This document shows, one piece after another, positions 3-5,572 of a stretch of DNA of 39,692 nt (within the stretch, counting starts at the first letter, position 1; each line of letters opens with the position of its first letter). The DNA is from an uncultured Clostridia bacterium (GTDB taxonomy: Bacteria; Bacillota; Clostridia; Oscillospirales; Acutalibacteraceae): assembly GCA_947628665.1 (NCBI GenBank), contig CANRAU010000017.1, positions 1 to 39,692 on the forward strand. Reading direction: 5' to 3'. A program made the position numbers and the translations under genes. The notes beneath the pieces were generated by a model. It made no database searches and was not told the DNA's origin. It worked only from the letters and a program-made list of their open reading frames with translations.

Positions 3-704
3 CAGGATGTGCTGGGCGAGTATGTGCGGCGCGGATGCGTGGGCGAAGCTCCCACGCTCGTGGATTTCTATAACCGTTTACGAGCGCAGGATGACGGTGA
101 CGCCGGAGAGCTTGCCCTCGCACTGGAGGCTTACGCGACGGGACGCCTTTCCACATTCGCCAAGCAGACGAATATCAACCTGAACAGCCGCGTGATTTGC
201 TTTGACATTCACCAGCTTGGTCGCTCTCTAATGAGCCTCGGTATGCTCGTGCTGTTCGATCATATTCAGCAACGCATGATCCGCTCCCGTGCTACGGGCA
301 TAACGACGTCAGTGATCAACGACGAATTTTATCTCATGCTCGACAAGCGCTTCACCTCGGATTTCTTTTTCCAAATGTGGAAGCGCGGCAGGAAGTACGA
401 TTGCGACTATTCCGGCATTACGCAAAACGTCGAAGACCTTTTGCGCAGTGAGAACGGACGTGCAATTATCAACACGTCCGAGTTGGTCGTGATGCTCAAC
501 CAATCCGCACTGGATGCGGCGCAGCTCTCGGAAATGCTCGATATTTCGCCCGTCCTGCGCGGCTATCTAAAAGACGCAAAGGAGGGTTCGGGGCTTCTCA
601 AATTCGGCGGTGAGATCGTGCCTTTCGAGAATGACATTCCGGCCAAATCGAAGATTTATAGGCTTCTCACGACGAAACCCAGCGAGGCAATCTACGACGC
701 TTAG
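3..704 (+). CDS. VirB4-like conjugal transfer ATPase, C-terminal part
   Basis: The reading frame is open to the left window edge, so only the last 233 residues are visible and the start is unknown. VirB4-type ATPases power type IV secretion and DNA transfer and sit on the cytoplasmic face of the mating channel. The visible part fits the C-terminal half of the ATPase domain. A hydrophobic strand followed by Asp-Glu (VINDEFYLML, about 105 residues in) matches a Walker B box. A following stretch of the kind GITQNVEDLL...ALIINTS, here GITQNVEDLLRSENGRAIIN, is typical of the TraE/TrsE/VirB4 group. The Walker A box must lie upstream. A weak stem-loop follows the stop. The assignment to VirB4-like proteins of Firmicutes conjugative elements is from motif reading; exact subfamily is uncertain. 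Confidence 0.85.
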   Translation, partial: QDVLGEYVRRGCVGEAPTLVDFYNRLRAQDDGDAGELALALEAYATGRLSTFAKQTNINLNSRVICFDIHQLGRSLMSLGMLVLFDHIQQRMIRSRATGITTSVINDEFYLMLDKRFTSDFFFQMWKRGRKYDCDYSGITQNVEDLLRSENGRAIINTSELVVMLNQSALDAAQLSEMLDISPVLRGYLKDAKEGSGLLKFGGEIVPFENDIPAKSKIYRLLTTKPSEAIYDA

Positions 705-964: not shown

Positions 965-991
965 AGCAGCCGTGGATCGGCTGCTTTTTTT
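965..991 (+). terminator. Second terminator or attenuator just before the next ribosome binding site
   Basis: A 7-bp stem (965-971 with 979-985) and a 7-nt loop are followed by seven or more T. It ends about 13 bp upstream of the AGGAGG of the next gene, so that gene is shielded by two terminators in a row and must be reached by read-through, antitermination or a promoter I did not find. Confidence 0.75.
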
Positions 992-1016
992 ATACATATC
1001 AAAAGGAGGAAACATC

Positions 1017-3254
1017 ATGGCAGAGCATAAAATCACGCCCGTCCCTAAAGAGGTCAAGTCCGCCAGTGGTGCGATTGATCATTACGCAGATCAGCGCACC
1101 GCCGAAGTTATAAAGACTGCTCCTACAAGGTCGGAATCGGCGCAAATCCCGCCGCCTTTGCATTCTGCGGCGGCGCAATCTGATAATATCGAGGCTACAC
1201 ATCTGCAGCCCGAGCCGTCCGAGCCGATCAAAACCGCAGAATTTGCGCGCATAGGCGCGGAAATCCCGCTTTCGGGGCAGTCCGCGCTATCCCTACAACC
1301 TGCGGCGGTAATACGTGCCGAGGGCGTCGCTGCTCTCGGACAGTCTGAGCCGTCCGAGCCAAACCAAGCACCAAAAAGCGCGCGCACGAGCGCGGCCACC
1401 CCGCAAGCGGAGCAGTCCACGCCACCTTTGCAACCTGCGGCGTCGCGAGCTGAAGGTATCGCTACCGAACAGCCCGAACCGCACATCAAGACTTTTAAAC
1501 CGACGTTGAAGACCGCAGCATCGGTATCGATCAAAGCCGCCAAAAGCACGCTCGCCGCCGAGGCCAGAGCCTTCGCGGCGCAGTCTGCTTCGAGTGAAAA
1601 CGAAGGACAGGCTGCGACCGCAGCCGTGGGTATGCTGTCCGCGCCGCCAAAGGCGGTTGCCGGAACGGCAGCGAAAATTCTTAAAAAGACGGGTCACAAC
1701 ACACTTGCACGAACCGCGAAAGGTGTAGCTATTGCCGCCTCAGCAGCTGACGCGCTCGGCGCACAGGCACAGGGTGACAATGCCGATGGCGCTCCTGCGG
1801 ACGTGGTGGCGCTTTCTGTACAGCGCGTGGTCGGCGCAGGTGGAAAACATACCTTGAAAAAAGTTCTGCGCCCGATCCGCACGGTGCGGGAAGCAAAGGC
1901 GGCCACAAAAAAGGCCAAAAACGCCGTAAAGGCATTCAAGCCGACCGCCAAAAGCACCATCAATATAACCAAGACGGGTGCGGCCAATATTAAGGTATCT
2001 TTTCAGTCTGCCCGCGCTGCATTGAAAGCGACGGCACAGACTGTGAAGACGGCAGGTGTTGCATCCCAAGCCACAGCTGCGGCAGCGAGACGTTCCGCGA
2101 TTGCTATTAAAGATGTAGTGACCGCATCCGCAAGAGCGACGGTGCGGTCGGTGAAAGCCGCCATTGCCGCCGTGAAAGCTACGGTGCAGACGACAGGCTC
2201 TCTGATCGGCGCTGTGGCGGCGGGCGGCTGGGTTGCCGTTGTGGCAATTATTCTCGTTGTGGTTCTTGTGGCCACTTGCGCATCTGCCTTTTCCATTTTT
2301 GCCAATTCCTCCAACCGCGCGTCAATCCGTTCGGTTGAAAATGAAATCATCGATGAATACTGCGACAAAGAACAGGATATTTTGCAGCGTGCAGGGAATC
2401 CCGAATGGGCGATTTCTGAGGGTACGCCGCCCGATATGCGAGATGTTCTCGCGGTTTACGCCGTAAAAGTGACGACCGATCCGACCAACCCCGATGAAGT
2501 GGCCACCATGACCGATGTGAAAGCGCGCACCCTGAAATCGATCTATTGGGATATGTGCTCACTGTCCTCGTACACAGAAACACGCGCTGTTGTGGAACAC
2601 TTGAGCAGCTACGACGGCACGCTCGACGCGTGGGTGCAGTACGATCAAGTAGTGCAAAAACCGATTTTGTGCGTAAAGACGGTTGCGAAAACCGCAGCAC
2701 AAGCTGCCGATTTGTACGGCTTTTCCGCCGATCAGCGGGCAATGCTTGCCGCGCTGTTGGATTCTAATACAGCAGATCAATGGGATGCCTTGCTTGCCAA
2801 CGACACCACATCGGATCGCGAAGCCTTTTTGAATGTGGCTCGTTCCCAACTCGGCAATGTGGGTGGCGAGGCATATCTTTCCCGTCTCGGCATTGGCTAC
2901 GAAATGCGGATGGACTGGTCAACGTGTTTCGTTTCCTATTGCGCTAACGAATGTGGGTACGTCGCCGCAGGGAAGCTCCCCGATGAATGGTGGGCGCCTA
3001 ATCTGCAAGAGTTCCTCGTCCTGCGCGGTCGCTTCCGTCTGCCCTTGCTTTACAGACCCGCACCCGGTGATATAGTGCTTTTCGACCGTGCCGATGCAAG
3101 CGGCAGTCGGGATGGATGGGTCGATGCCGCAGGAATCGTGGAATCCGTTGAGGACCAAAACATTTGCGTGATTGAGGGCGATTCCTCAAATGTGTGCTGC
3201 CGCAATCATTATAACCTCTCATCGCCCGATATAGTGGGCTATGGGACATATTAA
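1017..3254 (+). CDS. Large membrane-anchored conjugation protein with degenerate CHAP/NlpC-like domain
   Basis: 745 residues from ATG 1017, chosen because AAAGGAGGA precedes it by about 7 nt; an in-frame GTG at 972 lies inside a terminator stem and is unlikely. Residues 1-390 are Ala/Lys/Thr/Pro-rich and low-complexity, probably extended. One strong membrane segment follows at about 393-425. Residues about 600-745 resemble the CHAP/NlpC-P60 cell-wall hydrolase domain seen in conjugation proteins of Gram-positive elements (compare CD1108-type proteins), which open peptidoglycan for the mating channel. The expected catalytic positions look changed: the WCA-type motif reads WST (Ser635), and the DHVGIVE-type motif reads DAAGIVE (Ala704). 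It may therefore be structural rather than enzymatic. The methyltransferase ribosome binding site overlaps its end. Confidence 0.75.
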   Translation: MAEHKITPVPKEVKSASGAIDHYADQRTAEVIKTAPTRSESAQIPPPLHSAAAQSDNIEATHLQPEPSEPIKTAEFARIGAEIPLSGQSALSLQPAAVIRAEGVAALGQSEPSEPNQAPKSARTSAATPQAEQSTPPLQPAASRAEGIATEQPEPHIKTFKPTLKTAASVSIKAAKSTLAAEARAFAAQSASSENEGQAATAAVGMLSAPPKAVAGTAAKILKKTGHNTLARTAKGVAIAASAADALGAQAQGDNADGAPADVVALSVQRVVGAGGKHTLKKVLRPIRTVREAKAATKKAKNAVKAFKPTAKSTINITKTGAANIKVSFQSARAALKATAQTVKTAGVASQATAAAARRSAIAIKDVVTASARATVRSVKAAIAAVKATVQTTGSLIGAVAAGGWVAVVAIILVVVLVATCASAFSIFANSSNRASIRSVENEIIDEYCDKEQDILQRAGNPEWAISEGTPPDMRDVLAVYAVKVTTDPTNPDEVATMTDVKARTLKSIYWDMCSLSSYTETRAVVEHLSSYDGTLDAWVQYDQVVQKPILCVKTVAKTAAQAADLYGFSADQRAMLAALLDSNTADQWDALLANDTTSDREAFLNVARSQLGNVGGEAYLSRLGIGYEMRMDWSTCFVSYCANECGYVAAGKLPDEWWAPNLQEFLVLRGRFRLPLLYRPAPGDIVLFDRADASGSRDGWVDAAGIVESVEDQNICVIEGDSSNVCCRNHYNLSSPDIVGYGTY

Positions 3255-3271
3255 GGAAAGGAAAAATGCAT

Positions 3272-4318
3272 ATGGCACAGGAGAATATTATTATTGTCGC
3301 CGACGCTTTGCAAGCGCTCCAAAGAATTGTGAATAACACAATCGACTGCTGCATCACTTCCCCGCCATATTATGGGTTGCGAGACTATGGGGTAGCTGGG
3401 CAGATCGGCCTTGAAAATTCCCCGCAGGAATACATAGAAAAATTGGTCGAGGTTTTTAGAGAGGTACACCGTGTACTAAAGCCGGATGGGACGCTGTGGT
3501 TGAATATATCGGACAGCTACGCGGGATCCGGCAAGGGAGCGGCGAAGTACCCAGTGAACGCCACAAAGTACAAACAAGGGACGAACCACGGCATGATGGG
3601 AGCGGTAGCCACGACCCAGACGAAGACGCCGGGGATAAAGCCGAAGGACATGATCGGGATCCCGTGGATGCTTGCCTTCGCCCTACGCGCAGACGGTTGG
3701 TTCCTACGGCAAGACATCATATGGTACAAGCCGAACTGCATGCCGGAAAGTGTAAAAGATCGATGCACAAAAAGTCATGAGTATATTTTTTTGCTCTCCA
3801 AATCCAAGCGTTACTATTTTGACGCCGCCGCGATCAAAGAACCCGCAGTCGGATTTGACAATTGTCCACCTGCAGGGAGCATCGGGACTTTGCGACCAAA
3901 TTCTCGCAGGAGGAAGGGAAATGCGAGGTCATTCAGGGGCGGCGGCGCTTATACATCCAACATGGCGTATGATAACTCTGCCATTGTTGAGCGAAAGGCG
4001 CACGGGAATGTAGAGAACACTACAGGACTGCGGAATAAGCGCGACGTATGGTCTGTTTCGACACGAGGATTCAATGGCGCACACTTCGCGACATTTCCCG
4101 AAAAGCTCATTGAACCGTGCGTGCTTGCCGGATGCAGAGAGGGCGGCGTGATCCTCGACCCATTCTTCGGTAGCGGCACGGCAGGAAAGGTCGCGCAAGA
4201 CAATGGCCGCGCATTCATCGGCATTGAGATTAACCCTGAATACGGCGAGCTGGCGGCCAAGAGAACGGGCGGCAATCTTTTTATAAACTATGGGCGTGCA
4301 AAAAAACATGAATGGTAA
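3272..4318 (+). CDS. Site-specific DNA methyltransferase (beta class, N4-cytosine or N6-adenine)
   Basis: About 348 residues. The catalytic motif IV TSPPYYG lies near residue 30 and the AdoMet-binding motif LDPFFGSGTAG near residue 295, the order of beta-class amino-methyltransferases. An SPPY box is more frequent in N4-cytosine than N6-adenine enzymes, so base choice is unresolved. AAGGAAAGG (3253-3261) is 10 nt from ATG 3272 and only 4 nt from ATG 3266, so 3272 is preferred; the difference is two residues. It follows the previous stop within 20 nt and is probably co-transcribed. No cognate restriction gene lies next to it. On a mobile element a solo methyltransferase usually protects against host restriction, which is inference here. 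A strong terminator ends the unit at 4361-4398. Confidence 0.9.
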   Translation: MAQENIIIVADALQALQRIVNNTIDCCITSPPYYGLRDYGVAGQIGLENSPQEYIEKLVEVFREVHRVLKPDGTLWLNISDSYAGSGKGAAKYPVNATKYKQGTNHGMMGAVATTQTKTPGIKPKDMIGIPWMLAFALRADGWFLRQDIIWYKPNCMPESVKDRCTKSHEYIFLLSKSKRYYFDAAAIKEPAVGFDNCPPAGSIGTLRPNSRRRKGNARSFRGGGAYTSNMAYDNSAIVERKAHGNVENTTGLRNKRDVWSVSTRGFNGAHFATFPEKLIEPCVLAGCREGGVILDPFFGSGTAGKVAQDNGRAFIGIEINPEYGELAAKRTGGNLFINYGRAKKHEW

Positions 4319-4360
4319 CAGGGACGCACCCGCCCCTGATAATGACCTTGACCGCGACCA

Positions 4361-4398
4361 ATCCCCCGCAGGGCTTCGGCTCTGCGGGGGATTTTTTT
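4361..4398 (+). terminator. Rho-independent terminator after the methyltransferase
   Basis: An 11-bp GC-rich perfect stem (4361-4371 with 4382-4392) is followed by seven T. It isolates the downstream small RNA from the conjugation/methylase transcript. Confidence 0.9.
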
Positions 4399-4421
4399 AT
4401 TTTCAAAAGCCTTAAAAAGTA

Positions 4422-4450
4422 TTGACATTCCCGTGATCCGGCGATAGAAT
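4422..4450 (+). promoter_or_regulatory. Strong sigma-70 type promoter of the Cas12a-repeat RNA
   Basis: TTGACA (4422-4427), exactly 17 bp, TAGAAT (4445-4450). The expected start is at about 4457, the first base of a long RNA stem. Confidence 0.85.
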
Positions 4451-4471
4451 AACCAATGACGGGTGCGGCTC

Positions 4472-4501
4472 GGTTGAGATTGAATTTCTACTTTTGTAGA
4501 T
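4472..4501 (+). repeat. Single Cas12a-type direct repeat
   Basis: Positions 4483-4501 read AATTTCTACTTTTGTAGAT, which has every fixed base of the Cas12a crRNA 5' handle: AATTTCTAC, a T-rich 4-nt loop, then GTAGAT. The stem is TCTAC/GTAGA. Bases 4472-4482 would be the variable upstream half of a 36-nt-class repeat. It occurs once, so this is not an array. A chance match of about 16 fixed bases in 40 kb is very unlikely. Confidence 0.85.
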
Positions 4502-4582
4502 GAAAAAACGCGCTTGAGTGTAGTGTCTCATAAGGTGACGAACCGCACCTGTCGCCTATTGGTTGAAATTGAAAAGAAAAAG

Positions 4583-4609
4583 CGCCTTGCTTTGCAAGGT
4601 GTTTTTTTT
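4583..4609 (+). terminator. Rho-independent terminator of the Cas12a-repeat RNA
   Basis: An 8-bp stem (4583-4590 with 4594-4601, one G-U) and a TTT loop are followed by eight T. Confidence 0.85.
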
Positions 4610-4662
4610 GCCTTTTTTGCCTATACCACACGAAAAAAGCGAAAAAACTTTATAAAAAAGCA

Positions 4663-4691
4663 TTGACAAAACGCCAAAATTGGAGTACAAT
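4663..4691 (+). promoter_or_regulatory. Strong promoter of the ribozyme-led operon
   Basis: TTGACA (4663-4668), 17 bp, TACAAT (4686-4691). The expected start near 4698 puts the hammerhead ribozyme within about 12 nt of the mRNA 5' end. Confidence 0.85.
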
Positions 4692-4709
4692 GTAAATGTA
4701 ATCAAGAGA

Positions 4710-4778
4710 GGCGCAACCCCTGATGAGTCGCTGAGGATTGCGACGAAACACCCTGCAAAGGGCGTCGGGCTTAAAGCC
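4710..4778 (+). ncRNA. Type I hammerhead ribozyme in a 5' leader
   Basis: All core elements are present in order: CTGATGA (4720-4726), stem II of 5 perfect bp (4727-4731 with 4740-4744, G10.1-C11.1 kept), GAAA (4745-4748), stem III (4749-4754 with 4759-4764, one A-C mismatch) capped by a GCAA tetraloop (4755-4758), and the cleavage triplet GTC (4764-4766). Stem I joins 4717-4719 with 4767-4769, then AA/TT beyond a bulged C, then GGC (4710-4712) with GCC (4776-4778). Both ends leave through stem I, which makes it type I. Cleavage is expected after C4766. It would leave a 5'-hydroxyl leader of about 35 nt before the start codon, with the ribosome binding site (4786-4793) intact. Confidence 0.9.
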
Positions 4779-4801
4779 AAATAGCGAGAGGAGAAAAAGC
4801 T

Positions 4802-5572
4802 ATGACAAACGAAAAGTATGAAGGTGGGTATAGCGGACATAGTATGAGCAATAGGGCGATAAATGCGTATAGTGCGGGTCAAATGCCTTATAGCAAGTGG
4901 ACAAAGCAGAACATTATAGAGGGTATTCAAGAGTATGCGGAAGCTAACGATATTGATATTAAAAGCCTTGGAATAGAGCGACTGACTGCTCGTGAGCTAA
5001 AAAATATATTTTTAGAGTATGCTGCATGGCATCATACAGGAAAGTTTTATAGTGCCACCGACTTTTATGAGCTGCGCGCAGAAAAAATCGAGGATCTGTC
5101 AAAAGAAGAAATCGATGCCATAATACAATCTCGAAAGACAAGGAATTTGTCCGAGGAAGAACGCCGAGAGCGGAGAGAAAACAAAGAAAACCTTGAATCT
5201 GCCAAAGACCTTTATCGCCATTTAGAAATTATATTTTATTCCGGCATTACAAACCTGAAAACATTTCAGGGTGTGATAGATAGGTTTACCTCCGGCCGTA
5301 TGAACCTTGCCGCCGCATACCAAGAAGCATTGGAAGCGATAAAAAAGACAAGCGCTCCGAAAGTTGAGCAATGGTCAAAACTGCCGAAAGACCATTGGAG
5401 GCAGAATTTCGTGTGCGCATATAATAATGACATCGAAAAATATGCTAATATGCTTTTTTGCAAAACCGACCTTGATCACAAGGGCAACCTGCACACATTA
5501 CAACGGCTGAAAAAATATATTGCCGACCAACGAGCGAAAGAAGAAACCGCCACAAAGGAGGAAGATGTTTAA
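4802..5572 (+). CDS. Unrecognised 256-residue element protein with a self-cleaving leader
   Basis: I do not recognise this protein. GAGAGGAG (4786-4793) sits 8 nt before ATG 4802. It is charged and soluble with no signal peptide or membrane segment. A short conserved-looking N-terminal patch (SNRAINAYSAGQMPYSKWTK, residues 18-37) precedes a mostly helical, Glu/Lys/Arg-rich body with a predicted coiled stretch at about 100-140. The gene is directly followed by, and touches, an HTH gene. It also lies just downstream of the Cas12a-repeat RNA. A protein plus a small HTH repressor in one operon is the usual layout of anti-CRISPR/aca loci, so an anti-defence role is a reasonable guess, but nothing in the sequence proves it. 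An alternative start at the second Met (residue 17) would remove 16 residues. Confidence 0.75.
   Translation: MTNEKYEGGYSGHSMSNRAINAYSAGQMPYSKWTKQNIIEGIQEYAEANDIDIKSLGIERLTARELKNIFLEYAAWHHTGKFYSATDFYELRAEKIEDLSKEEIDAIIQSRKTRNLSEEERRERRENKENLESAKDLYRHLEIIFYSGITNLKTFQGVIDRFTSGRMNLAAAYQEALEAIKKTSAPKVEQWSKLPKDHWRQNFVCAYNNDIEKYANMLFCKTDLDHKGNLHTLQRLKKYIADQRAKEETATKEEDV

Follow-up and report, generated by a model that had tools for sequence, protein, structure and literature searches.

The DNA analysed here, a stretch of 39,692 nucleotides from an uncultured Clostridia bacterium of the family Acutalibacteraceae (the window), carries at 4405-4643 a unit that is probably a stand-alone RNA anti-CRISPR of the Racr kind directed against type V-A systems and borne as a small cassette on a conjugative element. 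This reading was built from sequence comparison and predicted structure, from which we infer that the unit is expressed, binds Cas12a and inhibits it. The features on which it rests are collected in Table 1.

Central to the unit is the handle of the Cas12a crRNA. A pattern scan found the exact 19-nt sequence AATTTCTACTTTTGTAGAT at 4483-4501 on the forward strand, where the earlier note, made from the letters alone, had placed a perfect handle, and the pattern AATTTCTACTNNNGTAGAT has this single match in the window even with up to three mismatches tolerated. When the 16-base pattern TTTCTACTNNNGTAGA was run with at most one mismatch over both strands of the 2,000,547-base genome, one match was obtained, and two with the control read backwards. 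A second candidate in the genome (C11:63037), which fitted a pattern with a 4-base loop at two mismatches, was dismissed as chance, the controls giving one match each. The handle thus has one copy in the window and one in the genome, without companion repeat or array, and a Pfam scan of 30 proteins of the window recognised no cas gene among them, in agreement with the earlier view that the window has neither an array nor a cas gene. As no second handle was found in the window at three mismatches, there is also no spacer between two repeats, as a CRISPR mini-array would have.

Table 1. Positions of the features discussed in the text (window coordinates unless a locus is named).
Feature	Position	Strand	Basis or remark
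TraG/VirB4-like conjugation ATPase	9..704	+	Pfam PF19044, E 1.7e-7
CHAP-domain-like protein	972..3254	+	Pfam CHAP, 21.3 bits (below cut-off 26); C32 copy 85% identical
N6/N4 DNA methylase	3266..4318	+	Pfam PF01555; final gene common to both elements ahead of the variable region
Left imperfect direct repeat (AAAAGCCTT...AAAAAGTATTGACA), supplies the cassette -35 box	4405..4427	+	Aligns to 4643-4668 and C32 5159-5183
Sigma-70 type promoter, TTGACA-17-TAGAAT	4422..4450	+	11/12 consensus matches
5' arm of outer clamp helix (8 bp + 11 bp)	4450..4468	+	MFE and centroid structure
Inner helix, 5' arm TGAGAT, paired to 4525-4530	4475..4480	+	Fold
Cas12a (type V-A) crRNA handle AATTTCTACTTTTGTAGAT	4483..4501	+	Exact match; stem 4487-4491/4496-4500
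Guide-position 23 nt: GAAAA + 7 variable nt + TTGAGTGTAGT	4502..4524	+	Hairpin 4508-4511/4518-4521 (4 bp)
3' arm of inner helix, GTCTCA	4525..4530	+	Fold
3' arm of outer clamp helix (4543-4553 and 4558-4565)	4543..4565	+	Fold
Intrinsic terminator, 16-pair stem, T8 end	4575..4609	+	Scan and fold
Right direct-repeat copy, contains the next promoter's -35 box	4643..4668	+	Scan, alignment
Next promoter, TTGACA-17-TACAAT	4663..4691	+	Scan
Candidate dual units (IMG/VR contigs)	L002 9280-9432; L182 1043-1193; L184 2600-2752; L194 6492-6642		

The predicted signals of a separate transcription unit surround the handle. The consensus promoter with 17-bp spacing and the T8 terminator described in the earlier note were both recovered, the former deviating from consensus at a single position, and 4300-4820 contains three promoter-like sites against a shuffle mean of 0.5. 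The RNA 4440-4620 folds at -65.4 kcal/mol (z -6.4), a stability that was equalled in 0 of 200 shuffles, and its forward strand has no reading frame of at least 60 aa. Likewise predicted is the 11-bp closing helix of the earlier note (4458-4468/4543-4553), which is lengthened past a 4-nt bulge by a further 8 bp (4450-4457/4558-4565) to an interrupted outer helix of 19 bp, the first bases of whose 5' arm may lie upstream of the RNA start. Within it, the inner 6-bp helix TGAGAT/GTCTCA encloses the handle together with the next 23 nt, as much as a mature Cas12a crRNA comprises; the fold has a 3-bp helix in addition, and the pair probability of the handle stem within the larger RNA is 0.85-0.96.

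The earlier note had seen in the long outer helix a specific design feature, a claim that stands in part. A flank duplex as strong as that of the window, formed between 45 nt upstream and 75 nt downstream, arose in 2 of 3000 shuffles, and in 0 of 3000 when 35 nt upstream were taken. However, of the 160 array handles that served as controls, five reached z -2.5 and one, at -4.95, surpassed the window, and in the microvirus discussed below the corresponding arm is coding. The unit gave no match to Rfam at gathering score, so that a known Rfam RNA was rejected; the sub-threshold matches to the cassette all had E 0.6 or worse. The better-scoring NsiR1 (E 0.002, 30.1 bits, cut-off 39) falls on the upstream terminator at 4313-4398 and not on the cassette.

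As no Rfam family was matched and as Cas12a is rare in the genus, the unit might belong to a new family of structured small RNAs of the element, for instance a conjugation regulator, in which the handle would be due to chance or convergence. Against this, an exact match at 16 positions is expected about 2e-5 times per window (even base composition assumed), and AATTTCTACTNNNGTAGAT occurred exactly in 6 of 300 family genomes and in 6 of 391 class genomes (host counted in both), compared to 0/300 and 0/391 for the reversed handle. Four of the class-genome matches, each a single copy whose loop letters differ, may still be due to chance. Among viral contigs, AATTTCTACTNNNGTAGAT with a trailing G was present in 36 stretches and its reversed control in 2. 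We consider such an unrelated RNA rather improbable.

The contig opens inside the conjugative element, which was recognised by its TraG/VirB4-like ATPase, a weakly matching CHAP-like protein and the methylase (Table 1). The unit is intergenic, lying between the methylase gene and ORF 4802 of this element. Downstream of the methylase, the order is terminator, RNA unit, second promoter, ORF 4802-5572, an HTH protein and a UPF0236 protein, followed by housekeeping genes. ORF 4802-5572 had no PHROGs, Pfam or PADLOC match; of 299 other family genomes, two have a relative of it (E 6e-23 for the first, 3e-4 for the second), and the locus of the first showed no handle. In the leader of this ORF, at 4705-4754, there is a hammerhead-ribozyme-like sequence, CTGATGAG...CGACGAAAC, which scored 18.9 bits with the Rfam type III hammerhead (gathering score 48.5).

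The same genome holds a sister conjugative element on contig C32, whose DNA is 84-92% identical over long shared stretches. One shared stretch stops at 4321, after the methylase. Thereafter, window 4337-4427 corresponds to C32 5090-5183 and window 4644-4720 to C32 5159-5235, two C32 stretches that overlap, and the segment between 4427 and 4644 is absent from C32, so both direct repeats correspond to one stretch there. As the sister is without the unit and has a single copy of the flanking repeat, we regard the RNA unit as a cassette of about 238 bp (4405-4643). The claim that a mobile element carries a self-contained RNA with a solitary Cas12a handle has held, with the cassette missing from the sister. 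C32 has a 203-aa reading frame between methylase and terminator and a 111-aa frame where the window has ORF 4802, neither with a Pfam match over cut-off or a PADLOC match, and because of these other frames the stretch after the methylase is seen as variable. The 203-aa frame (L283 4484-5095), of unassigned family, could be a protein counter-defence gene.

The profile TIGR04330, which detected Cas12a in other genomes, found none in the host genome. Of the 300 family genomes sampled, three (G123, G159, and G277) lie over the family cut-off of this profile and four reach E 0.001. G123 has an array with an identical TTTT-loop handle about 2 kb from its Cas12a, which is what the earlier note had proposed to look for in arrays of related Clostridia. 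Within the genus, the handle is present in 2 of 39 genomes, the host and G703, the other 37 having been searched by profile and handle (G098, G200, and G271) or by handle only (34 genomes). Contig C97 of G703 encodes a Cas12a of 1261 aa (TIGR04330, 1345.8 bits) directly before a two-spacer array, whose handle AATTTCTACTATTGTAGAT is one loop base off the window handle and is preceded in the repeat by AATAATAATCCCTTTA. The two spacers of this array matched the window and the sister contig with 7-9 mismatches at best. A relative of the CHAP protein of the element occurs in 77 of 300 family genomes, and G123, G159, and G277 are not among them; G154, which has a sub-threshold Cas12a match, has a weak relative of this protein. 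The objection that no host of the element has Cas12a is hence weakened, but not lifted, by the same-genus Cas12a of G703 with its near-identical handle; the host genome itself gave no Cas12a match. Another family member (G169) contains, at L123 1501-1519, a solitary handle AATTTCTACTATTGTAGAT outside long reading frames, in a genome without a Cas12a match.

The G703 repeat also bears on whether the handle is the remnant of an array. Its 5' half, AATAATAATCCCTTTA, has no counterpart ahead of the window handle, which as a solitary repeat unit matches the known subtype by the exact V-A handle only and not by the whole G703 repeat. Because this half is absent and the handle is single in the genome, we rejected the array-remnant reading, and the end of a true array, which the earlier note had named as a possible refutation, is excluded in the present assembly.

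The 23 nt that follow the handle occupy the position of a guide. The earlier note had proposed that this 'spacer' is specially tied up in secondary structure by TGAGA/TCTCA, which was not confirmed: that helix encloses the handle and the 23 nt instead, and the fold of the 36-nt guide was equalled by 18.9% of 970 array spacers (92 of 321 when matched for GC), so that an unusually structured guide was discarded. When the guide region was compared with phages and plasmids (word size 11), only a Capybara microvirus was found at E<1 among the matches listed; one of the weak matches is to a Salmonella phage (E 8; 86% of 29 nt). A search of nine genomes with up to three mismatches gave as the only other match a type IV pilin-like gene of the host's own genome (L223, C1 146519-146540, three mismatches), which is preceded by AGCTT and not by TTTV. 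As about 0.01 matches are expected per genome and the control matched in one of the nine genomes, we take it as chance. Conversely, 967 array spacers were compared with two microvirus loci and with the window; the two top alignments (16 exact of 30 nt, and 18/19 in a 27-nt spacer) fell on the microvirus Cap1_SP_223, the best for the window was 15 exact, and those to the window and to Cap1_SP_223 were taken as chance.

These searches bear on the alternative of a one-spacer crRNA gene, with which the element would borrow the Cas12a of a recipient and direct it by 4502-4524 against rival mobile elements. The handle and 23 nt do have the size of a mature crRNA, and passages of a review describe viral mini-arrays against relatives (PMC11656645). 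However, there is no convincing target among the listed phage and plasmid matches or in the nine genomes, the pilin match lacks TTTV, and the 3' end of the guide is undefined by any second repeat. A shared target would also not explain the pattern of identity with the microvirus, in which guide positions 1-5 and 13-23 are retained and 6-12 are not. We judge a one-spacer crRNA gene to be unlikely.

This microvirus, Cap1_SP_223 (MK496751.1), found in the search of the phage collection, has the same handle at 3006-3047, before its replication gene, followed as in the window by GAAAA, seven variable bases and TTGAGTGTAGT. Among 1140 distinct 24-nt sequences downstream of handles in the collected loci it was the best match, with 16/24 identical and an 11-nt run at the same offset (next-best run 8). 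An 11-bp helix and a 6-bp inner helix are predicted around its handle, and 45 of 3000 shuffles reached the duplex. Two bases separate the end of the 23-nt element from the annotated start codon of rep, with which the 3' arms of the two helices (L176 1545-1564) begin; these arms are rep codons, and the T-run is coding as well. A free-standing unit with its own terminator was consequently rejected for Cap1_SP_223, and we regard it as a handle in a gene leader, not as a free-standing copy of the window unit. By eye, a promoter (TTGACA, 17 nt, TATATA) can be read ahead of this handle, which the promoter scan did not report. In this position (L176 1501-1564), the rep leader could be a binding or cleavage site for Cas12a.

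In a second microvirus record, MG945527.1 (marked unverified), the handle lies in an unannotated gap within a helix of 14 bp that is accompanied by another hairpin; its duplex was not significant (22/300 and 169/3000 shuffles). In MT838534.1 the handle is broken, and there is no convincing clamp. MAFFT aligned the handles of three units but not the helix arms. When the whole unit was searched as DNA against plasmids, phages and the 300 family genomes, only short matches came up; viral contigs scanned for the exact unit and for its motif yielded none, and no relative of the Cap1_SP_223 Rep was confirmed in viral contigs. From these sequences, common origin and convergence of the window unit and Cap1_SP_223 cannot be told apart; the TTGAGTGTAGT element alone argues for a link.

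A two-handle locus was seen in the MAG TH-Jun18-244 (L006 1046-1264), where both handles lie in one predicted helix directly upstream of cas12a (start 1392), possibly an autoregulatory leader. With this locus and Cap1_SP_223 as examples, handles can sit in mRNA leaders, and the window unit might then be a regulatory crRNA-like RNA or a leader-type element by which Cas12a tunes a gene, for example cas12a itself. The unit of the window, however, has its own terminator and no cas12a downstream, and its guide matched the Cas12a contig of G703 with 8 mismatches in 23 at best, which makes a regulatory role rather improbable. A further locus, in the Succinivibrio MAG RUG13055 (L029 4964-5080), has a handle in a GCTTGAGCTC/GAGCTCAAG helix and then nearly back-to-back handles without spacers; no Cas12a match was found in its 8 kb.

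In all, 60 solitary handles were collected, after those within 700 nt of another handle-like stem or within 150 nt of a locus end had been dropped and most of loci L122-L175 left out as copies; the set includes the window (as L215) and some contigs that are near-identical. The 49 viral loci comprise 37 distinct solitary handles, four of which (L002, L182, L184, and L194; Table 1) have TGGATTGAAAC or TGGATTTAAAC at most 70 nt upstream, as against 0 of 1576 handle copies of other loci, overlapping loci being counted repeatedly. Type I-C repeats ending in GTGGATTGAAAC appear in passages of two publications (PMC9981886, PMC8406640). Read by eye, the four units have in common a hairpin, TGGATT-AAAC, a hairpin, the Cas12a handle, a hairpin and a terminator-like stem, with stem sequences that differ; RNAalifold recovered the handle but not the individually seen hairpins. 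In such a dual unit, one RNA may mimic both type I-C repeats (hairpin and TGGATTGAAAC) and type V-A repeats. As L002 and L182 are close relatives, we count about three independent cases, and the phage collection held no relative of the L182 unit.

That solitary repeat units can act as RNA anti-CRISPRs, which the earlier note took as known, is indeed published: passages of the original report (Camara-Wilpert et al., 2023; PMC10651486) describe RacrVA1-3, three type V-A Racrs that inhibited a Moraxella V-A system, and a survey that took in IMG/VR3, plasmids of PLSDB and prophages of GTDB. Like these, as far as the passages describe them, the window unit is a solitary V-A repeat sequence in an intergenic position on a mobile element, with no cas genes recognised, and would be expected to occupy Cas12a. 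It differs from the sources named for the survey by residing on an integrated conjugative element, and from RacrVA1-3, compared by description, by keeping only the 19-nt handle, clamped in a long helix. Passages of the review also set Racrs beside viral mini-arrays (PMC11656645). With the latter, the window unit has in common a host-type repeat on a mobile element, but it has one handle, no second repeat and no target that we found. In searches of openly accessible papers we found no report of a clamped Cas12a decoy, of a Cas12a decoy carried by a microvirus or an integrated conjugative element, or of a dual I-C/V-A unit. The clamp and the conjugative-element setting thus look new, whereas the class of RNA anti-CRISPRs is already published. 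The AcrVA families are protein anti-CRISPRs of Cas12a; the window unit likely shares their target enzyme and purpose, but unlike them it is an RNA, without a forward frame of 60 aa or more.

In the reading that we prefer, a Racr-like decoy, the promoter would make an RNA of about 150 nt in which a closed interior loop contains the handle and the 23 nt, while the inner 6-bp helix and the long outer helix fasten both ends. Cas12a would bind the decoy handle as if it were that of a crRNA, and even if Cas12a cut 5' of the handle, the clamp would keep the 3' part paired, and therefore a free guide of 20-23 nt would not be displayed. During entry of the element into a recipient, the enzyme would be tied up in a complex that does not target. 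A more far-reaching version, which we offer as tentative and on the whole doubtful, is that of a distinct decoy design: inner and outer helix would lock a crRNA-sized decoy to which TTGAGTGTAGT, as a second conserved element common to the window and an ssDNA microvirus, adds Cas12a contacts, so that the enzyme is trapped once it has bound, and beside it a phage design with Bacteroidota-type promoters, with an I-C-like repeat and the handle on one transcript, could disarm two CRISPR types at once.

If the unit is active, the range of RNA anti-CRISPRs would come to include integrated conjugative elements, and the unit would provide a built-in way of making a crRNA that Cas12a binds yet cannot use. 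The sister element without the cassette is a ready natural control, and an active unit would be a naturally occurring means of switching off an enzyme in wide use for genome editing.
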